NCBI GenBank assembly: GCA_022560555.1
Contig: JADFSZ010000076.1
Span: forward strand, 1 to 8,283
Direction of reading: 5' to 3'
DNA: 8,283 bases
Origin: JADFSZ01 sp022560555 [NCBI: PVC group bacterium]
Lineage (GTDB): Bacteria > GCA-001730085 > JADFSZ01
A program made the translations under genes and the position numbers. The notes under the pieces are model-generated. The model worked only from the letters and a program-made list of their open reading frames with translations. It did not search any database and had not been told where the DNA came from. The stretch's first letter is position 1, and each line of letters begins with the position of its first letter. This document shows positions 181 through 8,208 of this stretch, piece after piece.

Positions 181-203
181 ATTTACGATTTACCATTTAC
201 TAT
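181..203. repeat. Heptad repeat array ATTTACN, left part (interrupted by the IS)
   Basis: Three consecutive 7-bp units, ATTTACG, ATTTACC and ATTTACT, run from 181 to 201 and continue with AT at 202-203. The IS begins at 204. The array continues in the same 7-bp phase on the other side of the IS, at 933-946. It lies between the dsrE-like gene and guaB. Confidence 0.8.
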
Positions 204-219
204 GGCTCTAGACTAGCAA
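204..219 (+). repeat. IS terminal inverted repeat, left
   Basis: GGCTCTAGACTAGCAA is the exact reverse complement of 917-932. It lies 11 bp beyond the transposase stop codon, marking the 3' end of the element relative to the transposase gene. Confidence 0.9.
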
Positions 220-230
220 AACTGTAGGAA

Positions 231-890
231 TCAGTATCTTTTTTGGTATATCAGAGCCTCAAGTTCTTTGACTAAAGTAACATGTTTTTTATTCCAACGC
301 CATTCACATTCTTTGAGATGGAGATGGAAGTTATGTTTATAACCATTAAACTTGCTTAACCGACGTTTAGTGAAGCTCCAGAAGGCTTCAATACCGTTAA
401 TGCAAGCGCGTTTGTAACGAAATCTTTTTCCATGGTTAACACGATAATGTTTATCGTAACCAACGTCAACTAAACCATCGTAACCGCTCCATTGATCTGT
501 ATGTAAAATGCTCTTTGGATTGATTTTACCGACGATAATAGCTCGCAATGTCTTTCTGTTACAGTTGGGCACGATTTCGGTATAAACACGGCCGCCTCGT
601 TCGTAAATGCCAAAGACTGGCTGGCGATGTGTGCCGCGTCCACGTTTAGTAGGGATGCCCCGGGCTCTACGTGGACCAAAATAACTTTCATCGGCTTCAA
701 CTGTTCCGAGAATATGATTAAATTCTCGGGTTTGATAATCAAAGATCGTTTGACGAAAGATGTTATAGTAACGGTTAACTGTATTGCGATTGAGGCGTAC
801 TAAATACGCTGTTTTAGTGGCCTCAATATCAATGCAAAAGTACTCAATAATTTTTTTGATCTTATATCTTGATAACTTATTTTGTATCAT
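231..890 (-). CDS. IS1595-family (IS1016/ISXO2-like) DDE transposase
   Basis: This 219-aa protein catalyses cut-and-paste-type movement of its own element. Residues 1-50 form a helix-turn-helix-like DNA-binding region containing the phrase LVRLNRNTVNRYY. The ISXO2-like catalytic domain follows: D67 in VEADESYFGPRR, a GRGT-HRQPVFGI segment, D132 in HTDQWSGYDGL, and the third acidic or Asn position in INGIEAFW (N165 or E168), followed by basic KRRL. The C-terminal LHLKECEWRWN motif is typical of the family. Length matches the shorter IS1016-like members, which lack the extra N-terminal zinc-binding region of longer ISXO2-like members. The start is ATG at 890, as the ATG at 909 meets a stop within four codons; the SD is weak. 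There is no frameshift, so the gene appears functional. It reads in the same direction as guaB and the dsrE-like gene. Confidence 0.93.
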   Translation of the reverse strand: MIQNKLSRYKIKKIIEYFCIDIEATKTAYLVRLNRNTVNRYYNIFRQTIFDYQTREFNHILGTVEADESYFGPRRARGIPTKRGRGTHRQPVFGIYERGGRVYTEIVPNCNRKTLRAIIVGKINPKSILHTDQWSGYDGLVDVGYDKHYRVNHGKRFRYKRACINGIEAFWSFTKRRLSKFNGYKHNFHLHLKECEWRWNKKHVTLVKELEALIYQKRY

Positions 891-916
891 TGGCTTCTAG
901 CCTAACATGCTACGTC

Positions 917-932
917 TTGCTAGTCTAGAGCC
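917..932 (-). repeat. IS terminal inverted repeat, right
   Basis: TTGCTAGTCTAGAGCC is the exact reverse complement of 204-219. It lies 26 bp upstream of the transposase ATG, so any promoter of the transposase must be in this end or outside the element. Confidence 0.9.
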
Positions 933-946
933 TTACTATTTACTAT
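933..946. repeat. Heptad repeat array, right part after the IS
   Basis: TTACTATTTACTAT continues the ATTTACT heptads interrupted at 203. Joining 203 to 933 gives five in-phase heptads followed by ATG TGC. Removing one 7-bp copy as a target duplication gives four. The array ends only 9 bp from the guaB stop codon. Confidence 0.75.
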
Positions 947-955
947 GTGCTGCTT

Positions 956-2449
956 TTAAATGCTTTCCTTATTGTAATCATAAAGATCATGTATGCCGCC
1001 CTCCTTTTGAGAAGCCGGTGTTCGCATTTCCATTCTTAACGTCTCTTTATCAAGTCCTTGATGAACTTCAGCGAGAGAATTATATCCCAAATCCTGAAAA
1101 CCATGGCATACGCCTTTGGCCAAATAGGGAATAAAATCCCCCAGTGCCCCCCGATCAATCACACTTCCGGAAACCCCTTGCGCAACACGGATAGTTTCTT
1201 GATCAGCCAAATACCGTTTGGCCCCTCCGGATTTCATGGCGTCTTTCGATGCCATCCCGCGGTATCGCTTTAATCTCAAACCCGTCTTATAGTAGTATTC
1301 ACCCGGCGATTCTTCGGTTCCGGCCAGAAGCATCCCCATCATGACAGCGGAAGCTCCTAGTGCGAGAGCTTTGACGATATGGGACATACTGGCTATTCCT
1401 CCATCCGCTATGACGGGAACACCATGTTTCCGGGCTATGGACGCTGTCCTATAAACGGCTGTGGCCTGAGCCCGCCCCACAGCCATGGTCTCTTGAGTCG
1501 TACATATCGATCCCGGGCCCATTCCTATCCTTAATCCGTCAACACCCTTTTTGATGAGATTTTCGGCCTGATTCATCGTAACAACGTACCCCCCGATGAT
1601 ATCAACAGAATCCTTGTGTTTGTTTTTGATATAATCGATCATCTCATAGGCAAAAAGCGAGTCCCCTTGAGCCGCATCCACAACCAAAACATCCGCTCCG
1701 GCCTCGACAAGCGCGTCCACTCGCTCGTGATCACTTTCGCGGGTTGAGATGGCAGCTCCCACGATCAGTTGTTTGTTCTTATTTTTAGAGGCAAGAGGGT
1801 ACGAACGGTTAAGCAAAAGGTCATGCCGTGACACCAGGGCAACGAGATTATAATCTCTGTCAACAATAGGAAGTTTCCCTTTTTTAGACGTTCGTAATAG
1901 GTCATTCGCTTCTTCCAGGCTAAGTCCTTTTTGACCCACTATGAGATTTTCGCTCATCACTTCTTTAAGCGGACGATTTCGATTCGGCTCAAAATCAATG
2001 TCCCTATTTGTCACGATCCCCAGCAGCTTTTGACCCACTTCACCTTTTTCGGTAATGGGAACCCCCGAAAAGTGGTATTTAAGCTTAATCTTCTCTATAT
2101 CGCTAATAGTATGATCCGGGGAAAGCACAACCGGATCCGTAATAAAACCGTTTTCGAACCGCTTGACTTGTTTAAGCATTTCCACTTGACGCTCAAGTGT
2201 ATTGTTAAAATGAAGAATGCCGATCCCTCCCAAAAGAGCCATGTAAATGGCCATCTTCTCTTCCGTAACAGTATCCATAGGGGATGAGCAAAACGGGAGG
2301 GATAAAGCAATATTACGGGTCAGCTGTGTTTTTAGACTAACGTTATCAACAGCAAAGTGAATATGTCCGGGCAGAAAAATCAGGTCATCGTAGGTATAAC
2401 TATGATGTCCGGAAAAAAACTCTTGTGCACCACATCCGTCCTGCTTCAT
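956..2449 (-). CDS. guaB: Inosine-5'-monophosphate dehydrogenase, eukaryotic-like sequence type
   Basis: Cytosolic enzyme, 497 aa, oxidising IMP to XMP with NAD+, the committed step of GMP synthesis. Order (numbering from ATG 2449): N-terminal barrel with SSPMDTVTE (about 55-63); a CBS-pair insertion at about 104-221; then AAQGDS with D258, R307 in LRIGMGPGS, catalytic C316 in SICTTQE, the IADGG phosphate site, the flap with the R412-Y413 dyad, VAQGVSG with Q424, and the C-terminal EGGIH that in the family helps bind K+. The phrases TRNIALSLPFCSSPMD, FENGFITDPVVLSP, KKGKLPIV and RSYPLASK follow human IMPDH more closely than E. coli GuaB. The start is ATG 2449 because AGGAG lies 6 nt upstream and the alignment to human IMPDH fits; an in-frame GTG at 2536 would put the promoter inside the gene. 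Full length, with no defect seen. Identity is nearly certain; the origin of the sequence type is inference. Confidence 0.97.
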   Translation of the reverse strand: MKQDGCGAQEFFSGHHSYTYDDLIFLPGHIHFAVDNVSLKTQLTRNIALSLPFCSSPMDTVTEEKMAIYMALLGGIGILHFNNTLERQVEMLKQVKRFENGFITDPVVLSPDHTISDIEKIKLKYHFSGVPITEKGEVGQKLLGIVTNRDIDFEPNRNRPLKEVMSENLIVGQKGLSLEEANDLLRTSKKGKLPIVDRDYNLVALVSRHDLLLNRSYPLASKNKNKQLIVGAAISTRESDHERVDALVEAGADVLVVDAAQGDSLFAYEMIDYIKNKHKDSVDIIGGYVVTMNQAENLIKKGVDGLRIGMGPGSICTTQETMAVGRAQATAVYRTASIARKHGVPVIADGGIASMSHIVKALALGASAVMMGMLLAGTEESPGEYYYKTGLRLKRYRGMASKDAMKSGGAKRYLADQETIRVAQGVSGSVIDRGALGDFIPYLAKGVCHGFQDLGYNSLAEVHQGLDKETLRMEMRTPASQKEGGIHDLYDYNKESI

Positions 2450-2455
2450 CAAAGA

Positions 2456-2573: not shown

Positions 2574-3359
2574 TTAGGACTTGCTCAAAATCCGCTTAAG
2601 ATCAAACGTAAAACTGGGAGAAATAATTTCCAGCTCACGCACGGCATCTTTTAAGCATTTCTCATTTTGGCAGGTGTGCTTTTTCTTCCACGCGCTGTAG
2701 GCATCCAAAAACTGATCCGTTTTTTTCTCAATGACCAGTTCATGGGCATATTGTTTCAGGGAATCCAGAAACCCATCAAATTTCGTGTCACACATTTGAT
2801 CAAAGAATGAGAAAAACTCCCGTTTCATCTTGATCATGATTTCTAAATATTCTTCAAAATCCTCCGAAAGCTTATCCAAGGCATCACAAATACCTGTTTG
2901 TTTGCGGTAAACCTTATGATGGTACGTGGACGCAAGCTCATAATAAATCTTCCCACGACCCTGAAAAGCCCGGTATTTTTGGGGATTCGAAACACGGCCC
3001 CTCTTGTCACGCAAATGAAAGATGTCAAACATAGAAAGAGACATGATAATATTATCGGCATTTGTTTTGTAAATAAGATATTTCACAAAATTATCGCGAC
3101 AATTTTCAATCTTTGTCACTAATTCCGCGTCCGTCATAAAAATATATTTTATGTTTCTTTCCTGCGCTTTAGGGTCCGTCAATGACAAAAGGAGGCTCGC
3201 GATATAGACATCCACATCATCTCGAAATTTTTGATCATCGGATTTGCCGCAGGCGATACGGGATTTGAGGAGGATACTGACAATATAACCAAAAGCAAGT
3301 TCTCTTTCTTGCTTGGTCAAATCATACACCTTGACCTGTGTTATGTGGGAAGCGCTCAT
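2574..3359 (-). CDS. Uncharacterised, probably soluble helical protein, 261 aa
   Basis: I do not recognise this family. There is no signal peptide and no clear membrane segment. The chain looks largely alpha-helical and charged, with aromatic-rich stretches: IIMSLSMFDIFHLRDKRGR in the middle, then FQGRGKIYYELASTYHHKVYR, then an acidic/amphipathic segment (KLSEDFEEYLEIMIKMKREF) that could pack as a helical bundle. A C-x5-C pair (CQNEKCLKDAV context) lies near the C terminus. Two adjacent ATGs exist at 3362 and 3359. AAAGG lies 3 nt before the first and 6 nt before the second, so 3359 is preferred. It has its own promoter (3437-3465) and is followed after 124 bp by guaB with another promoter, so a functional tie to guaB is not shown. 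Codon use looks ordinary and the reading frame is clean, so the gene is probably real. Confidence 0.75.
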   Translation of the reverse strand: MSASHITQVKVYDLTKQERELAFGYIVSILLKSRIACGKSDDQKFRDDVDVYIASLLLSLTDPKAQERNIKYIFMTDAELVTKIENCRDNFVKYLIYKTNADNIIMSLSMFDIFHLRDKRGRVSNPQKYRAFQGRGKIYYELASTYHHKVYRKQTGICDALDKLSEDFEEYLEIMIKMKREFFSFFDQMCDTKFDGFLDSLKQYAHELVIEKKTDQFLDAYSAWKKKHTCQNEKCLKDAVRELEIISPSFTFDLKRILSKS

Positions 3360-3436
3360 CATAAGCCTTTACATGAAAAATGATTAATAAAGCTCACTTA
3401 CGATATGCCACATTTTCAATGATTATGTCAACATGT

Positions 3437-4042: not shown

Positions 4043-4116
4043 GATTAAAATAATGATTGAAGATGAATGAATAAAACTAAAAGTCAATGTGTAATTCAAT
4101 CAACGGTTTTATAAAA

Positions 4117-4190
<74 letters not shown>

Positions 4191-4252
4191 ATTCCAATAA
4201 ATAATGACAAATGAAACATATTCATTTTTCCTTATTCATTGAATTGTGGCCG

Positions 4253-4803: not shown

Positions 4804-6318
4804 ATGGCAGCATCCGAAGAAAATAAAGTCAAAGAAAATATGGTCTCGGAACTTTACGAAAAGGCTAAGGCGGCGTTTGAGCTGGAGAATTACGGCTATT
4901 CGATCGCTCTTTTTCGTAATGTCCTTTCGATTTATCCGGACTTTACAAAGGCGCGTCATATGTATCATTTAGCGATTATCCACCTCCAGGAATTTAGGAA
5001 GAATGTTCTTATTCATAATATCAAATCCGCTCTGCCATTCATCTTTTTTATTCTTAAAGGAAAGATTCTTTGTCTGATGAACGAAGAAATAAAATCTATT
5101 CATGAATTCGAAAGAGCTTTCGAACTTTTCCCCAGCGCTAAATGGATTCTATTCCTATCAGCGCAACTTGCCGAAAAAAATGAATTAGAAGACACAGCTA
5201 TTACGATTTACGATGAATTATCGGGCTTTAATTTTAAGACTTTTGAGTGTTACAAAATGATGGGGTTGATATTCCTTAAACGAAAAAATTTCGCCATGGC
5301 CCAGAAAAGTTTAAATAGCGCCATACTGCTAGAACCTCAGGACAAAGATGTTCTTCGAGCTATGAAGGATTTAGCGGCTCTCGGAACCATCGAATACGGC
5401 GGGTGGGAAAGTCAGGGCGATTTTACGGATAAAGTTAAGGACAAAGAACTCGCCGAAAAACTCAAAAAAGTTCAGTCGACGATTGGGAAGCAAACCACCG
5501 AGGACTTGAAGATAAAAGATTCAGATTTGGACAAAGAGCTTCAAGAGATGCTGCACCGGCTTAAAAATCAGCCCAATGACGCGCTAGCCATTCAGAAAGT
5601 CCGAAGCCTAACTCTTCCCCATGAGAAACTTTTATACGTGATTTCAACTTACGAATCCCTGATATCAAAAATTGAACCTACAGACGCCATGTATCGATTT
5701 TTAGCCGACATGAGCGGGAAAGCCGGACTTTGGCAAAAAGCCGAGTCCTTATATGACAAAGCTTATGAACTAACACAAGATCTAAACATTTTGGTTCTAA
5801 AACTTGAAAGCAGGATCCGTTTTATTCAGATGCAGCTTCAGGGCGGCTCCGACACGGGCAATGAAAACACATTATCAAAATCCGAACTAGAATCACTCGA
5901 ACAAGACACAAGCATCGAACTGATTCAAAAAAAAATGGAGCTGCATCCCAATGATACGGATCTGTATTTTCAACTTGGACAACTCTTTCTCAAAAAGGAC
6001 CTCCAAGATCAGGCTATCACTCAGTTTCAAAAATCTCTTGAAAGTCCCAAACTCCGGACTCAATCTCTTATGGCCCTTGGTCTTTGCTTCAAAAAGAAGC
6101 AGCTGTATGACCTTTCCAGAGAACAATTCGAAAAAGCCCTGGGACAGCTGACAACCATGGACACCACCAAAAAACACGTGCTGTATATGATTGGAGATAT
6201 CTCATTGAGAATGAATGATTTAGATAGAGCAAAATCCTATTTCAAGCAAATTTACGAGGTAGATATCTCCTACAAGGACGTCGCCATCAAGCTGGAGATG
6301 TTATACAAAAACAGCTAA
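4804..6318 (+). CDS. Tetratricopeptide repeat protein, 504 aa
   Basis: A probable protein-protein scaffold built from TPR helices; partners are unknown. Repeat-like units occur at about residues 15-48 (YEKAKAAFELENYGYSIALF), 93-125, 146-180 (MGLIFLKRKNFAMAQKSLNS), 292-325, 384-415 (LGQLFLKKDLQDQAITQFQK), 416-447 and 455-487. Between the two TPR blocks lies a linker, AMKDLAALGTIEYGGWESQGDF, followed by a charged helix (about 205-255). From memory this KDLAALGT-x-GGWE pattern recurs in TPR proteins of the PVC superphylum. Residues 71-92 (SALPFIFFILKGKILCLMN) are unusually hydrophobic, but two lysines/histidines flank or break the stretch, so a buried helix is as likely as a membrane segment. 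There is no signal peptide. Start ATG 4804 is the only in-frame start downstream of the last stop; M13 is an alternative without SD. A run of nine A (5927-5935) lies in frame. It precedes rplM by 89 bp. Confidence 0.88.
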   Translation: MAASEENKVKENMVSELYEKAKAAFELENYGYSIALFRNVLSIYPDFTKARHMYHLAIIHLQEFRKNVLIHNIKSALPFIFFILKGKILCLMNEEIKSIHEFERAFELFPSAKWILFLSAQLAEKNELEDTAITIYDELSGFNFKTFECYKMMGLIFLKRKNFAMAQKSLNSAILLEPQDKDVLRAMKDLAALGTIEYGGWESQGDFTDKVKDKELAEKLKKVQSTIGKQTTEDLKIKDSDLDKELQEMLHRLKNQPNDALAIQKVRSLTLPHEKLLYVISTYESLISKIEPTDAMYRFLADMSGKAGLWQKAESLYDKAYELTQDLNILVLKLESRIRFIQMQLQGGSDTGNENTLSKSELESLEQDTSIELIQKKMELHPNDTDLYFQLGQLFLKKDLQDQAITQFQKSLESPKLRTQSLMALGLCFKKKQLYDLSREQFEKALGQLTTMDTTKKHVLYMIGDISLRMNDLDRAKSYFKQIYEVDISYKDVAIKLEMLYKNS

Positions 6319-6840: not shown

Positions 6841-7233
6841 ATGCCAACAGTCGTTTTTATAGGTACCGGCCGAAGAAAATCCGCTACAGCCAGGGTCCGT
6901 ATGTTCCCGGGCCGCGGCGAATTCAAAGTTAACAACTCCCCTTATGAGAAATATTTCCCGAACAAACTTCATCAAATGACTGTTATGTATCCTCTCAATG
7001 TCACTGAGACACTGGGAAAATATGATATTCTTGTTAAAGTCCAAGGAGGGGGGAATTCCGGCCAAGCCGGCGCTATTCGGCATGGCATCGCCCGCGCCCT
7101 TCTTAAAGCCGATGATACCCTGCGAGCCAGCCTCAAAAAAGAAAAGCTCTTAACACGAGATTCCCGCGTAAAAGAACGCAAAAAATACGGCCATAAGAAG
7201 GCCCGTAAAAGCTTCCAATTCTCCAAGAGATAA
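6841..7233 (+). CDS. rpsI: Small-subunit ribosomal protein S9 (uS9)
   Basis: 130 aa, exactly the usual bacterial length. S9 sits in the 30S head, and its C-terminal tail reaches toward the P-site tRNA. The sequence shows [20 protein letters not shown] near the start, the conserved [19 protein letters not shown] core, [20 protein letters not shown], and the invariant QFSKR C terminus. An AGGGG SD lies 7 nt before the ATG. Second gene of the rplM-rpsI operon. Its stop codon is followed after 4 bp by the heptad repeat cluster at 7238. A short internal GGAGGGGGG encodes Gly-Gly-Gly and has no separate role. Confidence 0.97.
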
Positions 7234-7237
7234 AACC

Positions 7238-7265
7238 GTAATTGGTAAATTGTAAATAGTAAATG
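7238..7265. repeat. Heptad repeat cluster GTAAATN, four units
   Basis: Units GTAATTG, GTAAATT, GTAAATA and GTAAATG are head to tail, i.e. the reverse complement of the ATTTACN units beside guaB. The last part plus one base (7252-7266) is an inverted copy, 14 of 15 bases, of 7338-7352. It starts 4 bp after the rpsI stop codon. Confidence 0.75.
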
Positions 7266-7270
7266 GCATT

Positions 7271-7290
7271 AAAAATCTTTTTGATTTTTT
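7271..7290 (+). terminator. Weak AT-rich hairpin with T tail, possible rplM-rpsI terminator
   Basis: AAAAATC (7271-7277) pairs with GATTTTT (7283-7289) around a TTTTT loop and runs into T. It has only one G-C pair, so thermodynamic strength is low. Its place 38 bp after rpsI fits a terminator. Confidence 0.35.
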
Positions 7291-7307
7291 CTAAAACCAT
7301 CCTATTG

Positions 7308-7313
7308 TATAAT
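7308..7313 (+). promoter_or_regulatory. Putative thyA -10 box
   Basis: A perfect TATAAT, preceded directly by TG, lies 50 bp before ATG 7363. The -35 region is only a T run; TTGATT at 7281-7286 is 21 bp away, too far for a standard spacer. Plausible but weak. Confidence 0.4.
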
Positions 7314-7323
7314 TTCGTTGTGC

Positions 7324-7352
7324 CGATTACCCAATACCCATTTACGATTTAC
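7324..7352. repeat. Degenerate heptad repeat cluster in the thyA leader
   Basis: CGATTAC, CCAATAC, then CATTTAC and GATTTAC (one extra C at 7338). Orientation is opposite to the cluster at 7238-7265 and the same as the array at 181-203. The last unit ends 10 bp before the thyA ATG, where an SD would normally lie. Confidence 0.65.
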
Positions 7353-7362
7353 TGCCTTTGAC

Positions 7363-8178
7363 ATGAAACAATATCTCGATCAAATACAACATATTCTTGA
7401 TCATGGGGAGTCACGTCCGGATAGAACAGGGACGGGAACTTTGTCGATATTCGGCTTGCAAACCAAATATGACCTGCGTCTTGGATTTCCTCTTCTCACC
7501 ACTAAAAAAGTTCTCTTTGATAGTGTAGCACGAGAACTTCTGTGGTTTTTGCGCGGTTCCACAAATATCCGGGACTCTCTCACTCAACACACCCCGATTT
7601 GGAACGCCTGGGCCGACAAAGAAGGCGAATTAGGTCCGATCTACGGTTATCAATGGCGTTTTTGGGAAAAGTTTACCTGGGATGAATCGCAACAACTCTA
7701 CAAAAAAACACATATCGATCAGATAAAAGATGCCATTCATCTCATCAAGCATGAACCATCATCCCGCAGGATTATTGTTAGTGCCTGGAACGTCGCGGAT
7801 CTGGATCGGATGGCTCTGCCGCCCTGTCACGCTTTTCTCCAATTTTATGCCAACAACAAACGTCTGGACTGCCAACTGTACCAACGAAGCGCGGATATGG
7901 CCCTTGGGGTCCCGTTCAATATTGCCAGTTACGCGCTTTTCTTGACTATGGTTGCCAACGAGTGCGATCTCACACCCGGGATATTTACCCATACTCTCGG
8001 CGACGCACATATATATCTCAATCATATTGAAGGGCTCAAAGCGCAAATAACACGAACGCCCATGGAGCTTCCTCGTATTGAAATTGCCAAAAAACCGTTT
8101 TTTGATATCCAGTTTGATGATATTAAGCTCATCAACTATCGACACCACGAATTCATCAAATTTCCTATAGCCGTATAA
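7363..8178 (+). CDS. thyA: Thymidylate synthase
   Basis: 271-aa cytosolic enzyme converting dUMP and methylenetetrahydrofolate to dTMP and dihydrofolate. From ATG 7363: [15 protein letters not shown], then DRTGTGT with phosphate-binding R21 as in E. coli, [17 protein letters not shown]135-R136 in [11 protein letters not shown], nucleophile C155 in [26 protein letters not shown] with N186, and GDAHIYLNH contacting the dUMP sugar. Slightly longer than E. coli ThyA (264 aa), mainly through an insertion near residues 102-115 ([13 protein letters not shown]). The ATG at 7363 is chosen because the protein aligns from it; the in-frame TTG at 7318 would add 15 unrelated residues coded by heptad repeat DNA. 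No SD is visible; the repeat cluster at 7324-7352 occupies that region. No active-site residue is missing. Confidence 0.97.
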
Positions 8179-8182
8179 ATAA

Positions 8183-8208
8183 TCATGTGACATGATCATG
8201 TATCATGA
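8183..8208. repeat. 26-bp interrupted palindrome after thyA, operator-like
   Basis: TCATG-tg-ACATGATCATGT-at-CATGA: a perfect 12-bp palindrome at 8190-8201, flanked by 5-bp matching arms at 8183-8187 and 8204-8208, so 22 of 26 positions are symmetric. It starts 5 bp after the thyA stop and overlaps a possible start codon (8205) of the next gene. There is no T run after it, so it is not a typical terminator. Confidence 0.5.

Follow-up and report, generated by a model that had tools for sequence, protein, structure and literature searches.

Two facing arrays of a dispersed GTAAATN heptad family between rpsI and thyA in a PVC group bacterium

The two clusters of seven-base repeats that lie between rpsI and thyA in the window (the whole stretch of 8,283 nucleotides that was analysed) are tentatively read here as facing copies of a dispersed, non-coding repeat of gene borders that spread by copying and not by slippage in place, a reading to which a probability of roughly 0.4 is attached. 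The family to which they belong, GTAAATN or, on the other strand, ATTTACN, is real and dispersed; its word is apparently new and its layout is known. In the genome that carries the window, the arms of the family occur singly or in inverted pairs and point into the spacer from the edge of a gene, in most cases from a stop codon. Such arms would have spread through the copying of short intergenic DNA, in the manner of REP or MITE sequences, and would persist where insertion is tolerated, at the 3' ends of genes. For this genome, the mobility of the arms is a proposal drawn from sequence comparison.

Arrays in the Window

The window corresponds to contig C45 in a genome (designated G000) that comprises 1.66 Mb in 222 contigs and is ~92% complete. 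Profile matches identify rpsI (Ribosomal_S9, PF00380; positions 6841-7233, plus strand) and, downstream of it, thyA (Thymidylat_synt, PF00303; 7363-8178, plus strand), the start of the latter being the ATG at 7363, picked by hand from the list of open reading frames (ORFs). Both clusters are contained in the 129-bp gap between these genes. Arm 1 (7238-7266, plus strand; sequence, tandem-repeat, pattern, and ORF evidence) reads GTAATTG-GTAAATT-GTAAATA-GTAAATG-G; 4 nt separate its first base from the rpsI stop codon and GTAAAT lies on the coding strand. Arm 2 (7324-7352, minus strand; sequence, pattern, and ORF evidence) reads GATTACC-CAATACC-CATTTAC-GATTTAC, with the left two units degenerate, and ends 10 nt short of the thyA ATG. 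The stretch between the arms (7267-7323, assigned to no strand; sequence, spacer comparison, and site scan) is AT-rich. Positions 7252-7266 match the reverse complement of 7338-7352 at 14 of 15 bases, with 71 bp between them, so that the inverted clusters described in an earlier note on this DNA, one after rpsI and one before thyA, are where that note had placed them. Dinucleotide shuffles of the window (n = 200) gave 0 matches to either pattern, versus 2 observed for three tandem units and 5 for two. The same note had placed a weak terminator and a TATAAT in the 71-bp stretch. A bare TATAAT is indeed present in the spacer, at 7308-7313; the terminator did not hold up, as a scan of 7150-7420 found neither a terminator-like nor a promoter-like site, and an intrinsic terminator (a G+C-rich stem with a run of T) at the rpsI-thyA gap was rejected on the result of that scan. 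Elsewhere in the window, palindrome-like, overlapping repeats (ATCATGT) follow thyA at 8182-8208, a minus-strand ORF at 2574-3362 (262 aa) has no Pfam match at E 0.001, and a DUF4416 protein (PF14385; 3500-4042) is encoded near a tRNA-Val (4116-4191) and a TPR protein (4804-6318).

The first array of the window, which neighbors a guaB-like IMP dehydrogenase gene (PF00478 profile match; 956-2452, minus strand), is split by an insertion sequence (IS). Its left half (181-203, minus strand; tandem-repeat and pattern evidence) reads ATTTACG-ATTTACC-ATTTACT-AT and thus ends in TTACTAT, and its right half (933-946, minus strand; sequence, ORF, and IMP dehydrogenase match) reads TTACTAT-TTACTAT, starting with the duplication of that word. 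Between the halves lies an IS1595-family element of 729 bp (204-932, minus strand; terminal repeats and profile match) with a transposase at 231-890 (DDE_Tnp_IS1595, PF12762, E 3e-28) and inverted terminal bases that match at 18 of 19 positions. The 7-bp TTACTAT flanks it on both sides; target duplications of IS1595 elements are usually 8 bp. When rejoined without the element, the array reads ATTTACG ATTTACC ATTTACT ATTTACT ATG, i.e., four ATTTAC units, and its position would be 9 nt from the guaB stop codon, as that of 933-946 is now, with GTAAAT on the guaB coding strand. Of the three clusters with a 7-bp period that had been described in the window, the periodic arrays are confirmed, and the two pieces at 181-203 and 933-946 are a single array parted by the IS. 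Arms of the family can therefore take up insertion sequences, as this array shows.

Distribution and Orientation in the Genome

A pattern search of the whole genome recovered three tandem ATTTACN units at 19 places, compared to 1 for the reversed pattern, and two tandem units at 57 places, compared to 6. In the fetched array loci, both sets of control matches (1 and 6) lie entirely within GTAAAT arrays, where they arise because the seventh base of an array chances to fit the reversed pattern. The control outside of arrays is therefore nil, and the comparison understates the excess. The earlier note had proposed a dispersed family and had named a lack of enrichment elsewhere in the genome as what would speak against it; enrichment is what was found, and it favors the copying reading. 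The 57 places group into 27 clusters, of which 7 carry two-unit arrays on both strands (8 if cluster C25, with one relaxed arm, is included). In all paired clusters, strict or relaxed, GTAAAT is on the left and ATTTAC is on the right. The other 20 clusters (19 if the relaxed pair is counted among the pairs) have a two-unit array on a single strand only.

To relate arrays to genes, the DNA around every array place in G000 was fetched and genes were called with a home-made hexamer model; this caller set the rpsI start at 6976 instead of 6841, and distances to start edges are rough. A total of 31 of 35 arrays were scored, the remaining 4, among them the IS-split array of the window, having no gene call on one side. 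In 27 of the 31, the closer of the two gene edges lies 5' of GTAAAT, and in 4 it lies on the opposite side (p 3.4e-5, a nominal value, as are all p values here, given that the two arms of one pair are not independent). The tabulation of position and orientation that the earlier note had called for thus reveals arrays that mostly read from the gene edge into the spacer. Of the 27, 7 adjoin start edges and 20 adjoin stop edges, the distance to the stop being 3-13 nt for 14 of the 20; it should be noted that distances are negative in five of the 27. Moreover, none of the 31 arrays lies between divergent genes, although divergent spacers make up 24.8% of intergenic bases in comparison contigs (117 spacers of 60-600 nt). 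Orientation and the avoidance of divergent spacers also favor spread by copying. A role of GTAAATN in supplying TAA in all three frames after a stop codon would suit the arms at stop edges, although arms at start edges and heptamers lacking a stop triplet would not fit it, and it was set aside.

Seventh Base, Flanks, and the Slippage Alternative

Less probable than copying, and improbable in itself, is that the arrays are simple sequence repeats grown by slippage, in which each slip of the polymerase adds a further copy of seven bases, one of the options that the earlier note had listed. For the majority of bacterial genomes examined, heptamers are reported to be the most frequent of the long simple repeats (Mrazek 2007, as quoted in PMC4679880), and slippage was proposed by Mrazek and co-workers in 2007 as the cause of the heptamer excess (as quoted in PMC4692102 and PMC4679880). 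Period 7 also stands out in G000 whatever the sequence, a point in favor of slippage: among 60 other contigs of this genome (357,006 readable bases; 12 contigs all N and two cut at 20 kb), 9 arrays of period 7 scored at least 12, compared to between 0 and 4 arrays at any other period in the range 4-18, with the maximum of 4 at period 14. This survey sampled motif-free contigs, passing over those already seen to carry the motif, e.g., C31, C101, C111, C121, C118, C158, and C164. Tandem repetition of period 7 above chance, as looked for in LSSRs, is thus seen both in the GTAAATN family and in heptads of any sequence. Other period-7 words in G000 include CCGAACT, CTGTNNN, CGATAAN, AACTGGA, AACTGAA, AGCGTTT, and GTAAACN, and other heptads occur near GTAAAT arrays. 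Autocorrelation at lag 7 stands out in the motif loci alone (0.337); the first unselected intergenic sample gave 0.276 at lag 7, 0.280 at lag 9, and 0.295 at lag 2. By eye, facing AGCGTTT and ACGCT-type runs were noted on C128, as was a CTGTNNT array with a 42-bp higher-order repeat that adjoins a GTAAAT array (L048:3862-3971).

A slip copies the seventh base along with the other six. In the 38 genome-wide runs of at least two exact GTAAAT words (57 steps), however, the seventh base is the same as that of its neighbor in 14 of 57 steps, versus 17.5 in shuffles, a deficit that is not significant (P as few 0.18; P as many 0.89). Neighbors therefore share this base no more often than by chance, which argues against whole-heptad slippage, and the identical units that slippage leaves in LSSRs are not what these runs contain. 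Internal seventh bases are G or C in 43 of 57 cases, against an intergenic G+C content of 0.386 in the first unselected sample, and C/G alternation along the runs is slightly above that in shuffles (21 versus 15.9, P 0.06). An uncopied, G/C-rich seventh base thus disfavors slippage, which also leaves the gene-edge orientation of 27 of 31 arrays without a reason.

The sequences that border the runs resemble one another between loci over the adjacent 10 nt, both left and right (0 of 500 shuffles as high), based on 31 of 38 runs on the spacer side and 29 of 38 on the gene side, the rest having a further exact unit there. At 11-20 nt on the gene side the likeness is borderline (33 of 500 shuffles), and there is none farther out. 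Arms share a layout of approximately ACC or a degenerate unit (GTWATTC), then two to four GTAAAT words spaced by one base, mostly G or C, and then G(T/C)(T/A)AAAA. Shared flanks together with seventh bases that are not shared support copying. Nonetheless, degenerate units (GTAATTC, GTTATTC, GTTAATG) are frequent in the 10-nt flanks, and the likeness may in part reflect decayed repeat units, which slippage would also leave; the degenerate units beside the runs fit the decay of older arrays.

Comparison with Other Genomes

The three-unit pattern was present in 12 of 386 genomes, which belong to many families and include G000. The reversed control was approximately as frequent in G065, G213 (2 versus 2), and G251 (4 versus 3); runs of ATTTACC alone would yield such control matches, an explanation checked in G000. 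In G001, the only relative from the phylum of G000 that was compared, rpsI is in a different setting, with neither thyA nor an array next to it over the stretch that was read, so that an empty site, which would bear on copying, is not readable there. Among the thyA loci of named genomes (32 loci, 206 kb, best identity 60%), no period-7 array scoring at least 12 was found.

Three of the genomes bear directly on how arrays arise. G272, an unrelated genome, carries a 108-bp element in which GTAAATNx3 and ATTTACNx3 face each other near the ends, as the arms do in the window (L152-L161). This unit has 16 matches, among which are 10 full-length copies at 88-100% identity, and its multicopy state supports copying; its core is conserved and its spacing nearly fixed, whereas cores differ in G000. 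In G271 (149 matches), the heptad GTAAATN forms long perfect runs, for which slippage looks apt. The orientation rule is followed by 1 of 16 arrays in G271, by 3 of 4 in G251, and by 5 of 6 in G272; the heptad of G271 is oriented the other way, and the rule is therefore not universal, which weakens the case for copying. Long perfect GTAAATC runs were noted in G271 at L136, L168, and L170, with GATGGAC runs elsewhere, and a hairpin, GGTAAACGCATT...AATGCGTTTACC, is present near one long run.

G251 contains 20 period-7 arrays, made up of perhaps ten distinct words, within 60 kb that were picked because they bear the motif. It shares a genus label with G114, and three proteins of the two are 96-97% identical. 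Over three stretches of DNA, two are mostly 92-95% identical and the third (L182) is partly at 73-79%. Of the orthologous spacers, 15 of 19 rows yielded an identity (in the other 4, one gap was <20 nt or absent). Seven of the 15 carry a period-7 array in G251, and their identities range from 0.39 to 0.68; among the other 8, which lack one, 4 align at >0.9 and 4 at 0.44-0.66. Where the flanking genes are at least 89% alike, all 4 array-bearing spacers align at 0.39-0.59. Further, a GTAAAT unit of 75 bp is found again elsewhere in G251 at 89% identity, and G114 has a match of 65 bp to it (81.5%) that does not lie on the orthologous contig. Recurrence of a unit at other sites, and spacers that fail to align, are consistent with copying. 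Against this it should be noted that the stretches were picked for bearing the motif, and show spacer turnover there and not in G000, and that half of the 8 array-free spacers also aligned poorly. Among the papers listed in a literature search, none dealt by its title with the turnover of such array-bearing spacers.

Known Heptamer Systems and the Binding-Site Alternative

Short, dispersed heptameric arrays are familiar from cyanobacteria as STRR sequences. These, which the earlier note had called to mind, are the same kind of repeat with words other than GTAAATN, and closer matches are found in Xanthomonas (PMC4692102) and Geobacter metallireducens (PMC2700814). In Xanthomonas, the arrays described are tandem heptamers GGGAATC (variable, GGGANTN) of 2-26 units that are mostly intergenic, with one site per strand in 70 convergent pairs in Xcc and 75 in Xac; of 186 and 183 sites in total, 8% and 7% lie between divergent ORFs, and the mean distance is 28 nt to the 5' ORF and 160 nt to the next (PMC4692102). 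Nostoc arrays are of GGGGA(C/T)T (PMC4692102). As in that account, GTAAATN arrays are tandem heptamers with variable places that form opposite-strand pairs close together (7 of 27 clusters, or 8 with the relaxed pair) and lie nearer the 5' ORF (27 of 31) and rarely in divergent spacers (0 of 31), the last two on home-made gene calls. Xanthomonas arrays, in contrast, are G-rich, capable of forming G-quadruplexes, and far more numerous. GTAAATN has no G tract, and the shared layout would therefore not stem from quadruplexes. In G. metallireducens, the so-called global regulator binding sites of classes 1-3 have 3-5 tandem repeats of 7-9 bases per site; those of classes 1 and 2 form opposite-strand pairs at variable distance, the outer repeats of class 1 are poorly conserved, and IS elements are reported near some (PMC2700814), compared to an IS inside the first array of the window. 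The Geobacter words differ (MTYCTGA, GTTGCTYN, TCTCCGTS), and another repeated sequence occupies the proBA gap in G. sulfurreducens (PMC2700814). Similarly, Beggiatoaceae have intergenic direct repeats of TAACTGA, an exact heptamer with one inverted repeat and only rare repetition of related heptamers; strong orientation to gene edges is shared with GTAAATN, but 147 of 170 sets point to start codons (PMC4679880), whereas GTAAATN arms are mostly at stop edges. A literature search by the letters of the family returned no title on GTAAATN or ATTTACN and one on heptanucleotide repeats of fission yeast. Given the opposite-strand heptamer pairs already published for Xanthomonas and Geobacter, GTAAATN is a known kind of repeat.

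The Geobacter authors read paired sites as binding sites and proposed IHF/HU binding, for the Geobacter sites only (PMC2700814). By analogy, a DNA- or RNA-binding protein could read GTAAAT every seven bases, with pairs looping or bending the DNA, an explanation about as improbable as slippage. Six fixed bases and one variable base would be the trace of a spaced binding word, and the arms are short (2-4 units) and oriented. However, searches with exact GTAAAT partly build in the fixed bases, and the units that directly border the runs show variation at each of the six positions; the variable base is G/C-rich; each of the other period-7 words (CCGAACT, CTGTNNN, AACTGAA, AGCGTTT, CGATAAN) would need a reader of its own; and GTAAAT has no known reader protein. 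The turnover of array-bearing spacers between close relatives of another group (G251 and G114) likewise speaks against conserved binding sites.

RNA Folding, Whole Mobile Elements, and Transposases

That the two arms form an RNA hairpin at gene ends, acting as a terminator, a protector of mRNA 3' ends, or an attenuator, is quite unlikely, even though arms mostly follow stop codons. For the eight paired units, all 16 strand folds are below those of shuffles (z -0.6 to -6.2), 7 of 16 with z under -3, and in the plus-strand folds of C111 and C215b GTAAAT pairs with ATTTAC. The window itself folds at z -2.6 (plus strand) and -3.5 (minus strand). In its plus-strand RNA, a stem of the two 14/15 stretches was rejected, as the lowest-energy fold does not join one to the other and leaves 7331-7352, most of arm 2, unpaired; for the hairpin option of the earlier note the folds are thus mixed evidence, and the search for a terminator-like site speaks against it. 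Moreover, the spacer-side seventh bases of facing arms would be complementary in just one of the 7 strict pairs, 20 of 27 clusters are on a single strand, and 15 array-bearing spacers of GTAAAT loci have a mean z of -1.0, with 2 of 15 under -3.

Equally unlikely is that 7238-7352 as a whole is one miniature mobile element, with the arms as its ends and the spacer as its cargo, as had been suggested for a unit of 115 bp. The element of G272 has exactly this structure (GTAAATNx3, core, ATTTACNx3) in 10 full copies, so that such elements exist there, with both the terminal inverted repeats and the shared core of a MITE. In G000, however, the cores of the eight paired units are 34-142 bp long and unlike one another (1 of 28 comparisons at ≤5/200 shuffles), the window spacer at 7267-7323 resembles none of the other spacers, and single-strand clusters outnumber pairs. 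Since cores differ and flanks are alike for ~10 nt, the repeated thing is the arm and not a 115-bp unit, which was rejected for G000 on these grounds. Some copies do share more than the arm. In a gapped comparison of whole loci, C25 and C113 share 71% identity across 129 bp that take in the arms, which partly fits a MITE; C185 and C187 are 85% alike over 68 bp, and C42 and C55 are 74% alike over 115 bp. The same comparison brought out two other dispersed repeats near arrays in G000. One is a separate repeat of ~90 bp with CTTCGGGATGCCGAAG and TTCATTCGGCAT (L046:2846-2938 and L109:18259-18351, 1447-1519), one copy of which is beside a GTAAAT array; the other is a 73-bp stretch that is 81% alike between L044:936-1007 and L062:2346-2418, each ~100 bp past a GTAAAT array on the spacer side.

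For the preferred reading, spread of arms by copying, the unshared cores also mean that G000 gives no sign of the movement of a whole element, and no transposase is tied to the arms. REP sequences are palindromes of 20-40 bp, many with a GTAG or CGTC tag (two large superfamilies), that go with a RAYT transposase. GTAAATN arms resemble REP/BIME sequences, which are known IS targets (PMC1525189), in their extragenic dispersal; a single arm, by eye, is not palindromic, and no Y1 transposase flanked by the repeat is present in G000, where the three Y1_Tnp matches are on contigs without a two-unit array (C102, C27, and C37). A profile search of G251, G271, and G213 gave no Y1_Tnp match, and a RAYT was rejected as the mover of arms there. 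Similarly, RVT_1 had no match in 7 of 8 genomes searched, G000 included, and 1 match in G272, on which a reverse transcriptase was rejected as the writer of the arrays.

A further, quite improbable suggestion is that an unknown process writes heptad arms into intergenic DNA from gene edges, with different lineages writing words of period 7, or of 10-11, at the same sites. Such a process could copy a six-base word over and over, adding one untemplated, G/C-prone base at every junction, or could insert such words repeatedly. One orthologous gap is occupied by facing GTAAAT/ATTTAC heptads in G251 and, in G114, by facing GGTTAA-like arrays (score 23.5 at period 10). In G114, L248 bears facing arrays near 18720-18950 and 9400-9710, with periods of 10 (GGTTAA followed by 4 variable bases) and ~11 (GATATA-like), and in both gaps the G251 orthologue has facing period-7 arrays, which fits the writing of different words at the same sites.

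Implications

In the window, the arms are probably without a dedicated job, and they may weakly fold the rpsI-thyA transcript. More generally, the GTAAATN family permits two checks of slippage, namely whether the variable base is copied and whether the arrays are oriented to genes, on an AT-rich word that is unable to form quadruplexes. Both go against it, and the strongest general point to emerge is that whole-heptad slippage accounts for neither the uncopied, G/C-rich seventh base nor the orientation, suggesting that copying slips by DNA polymerase are not the whole story here. The facing layout with unrelated words in Xanthomonas, Geobacter, and G000 hints at a common cause.
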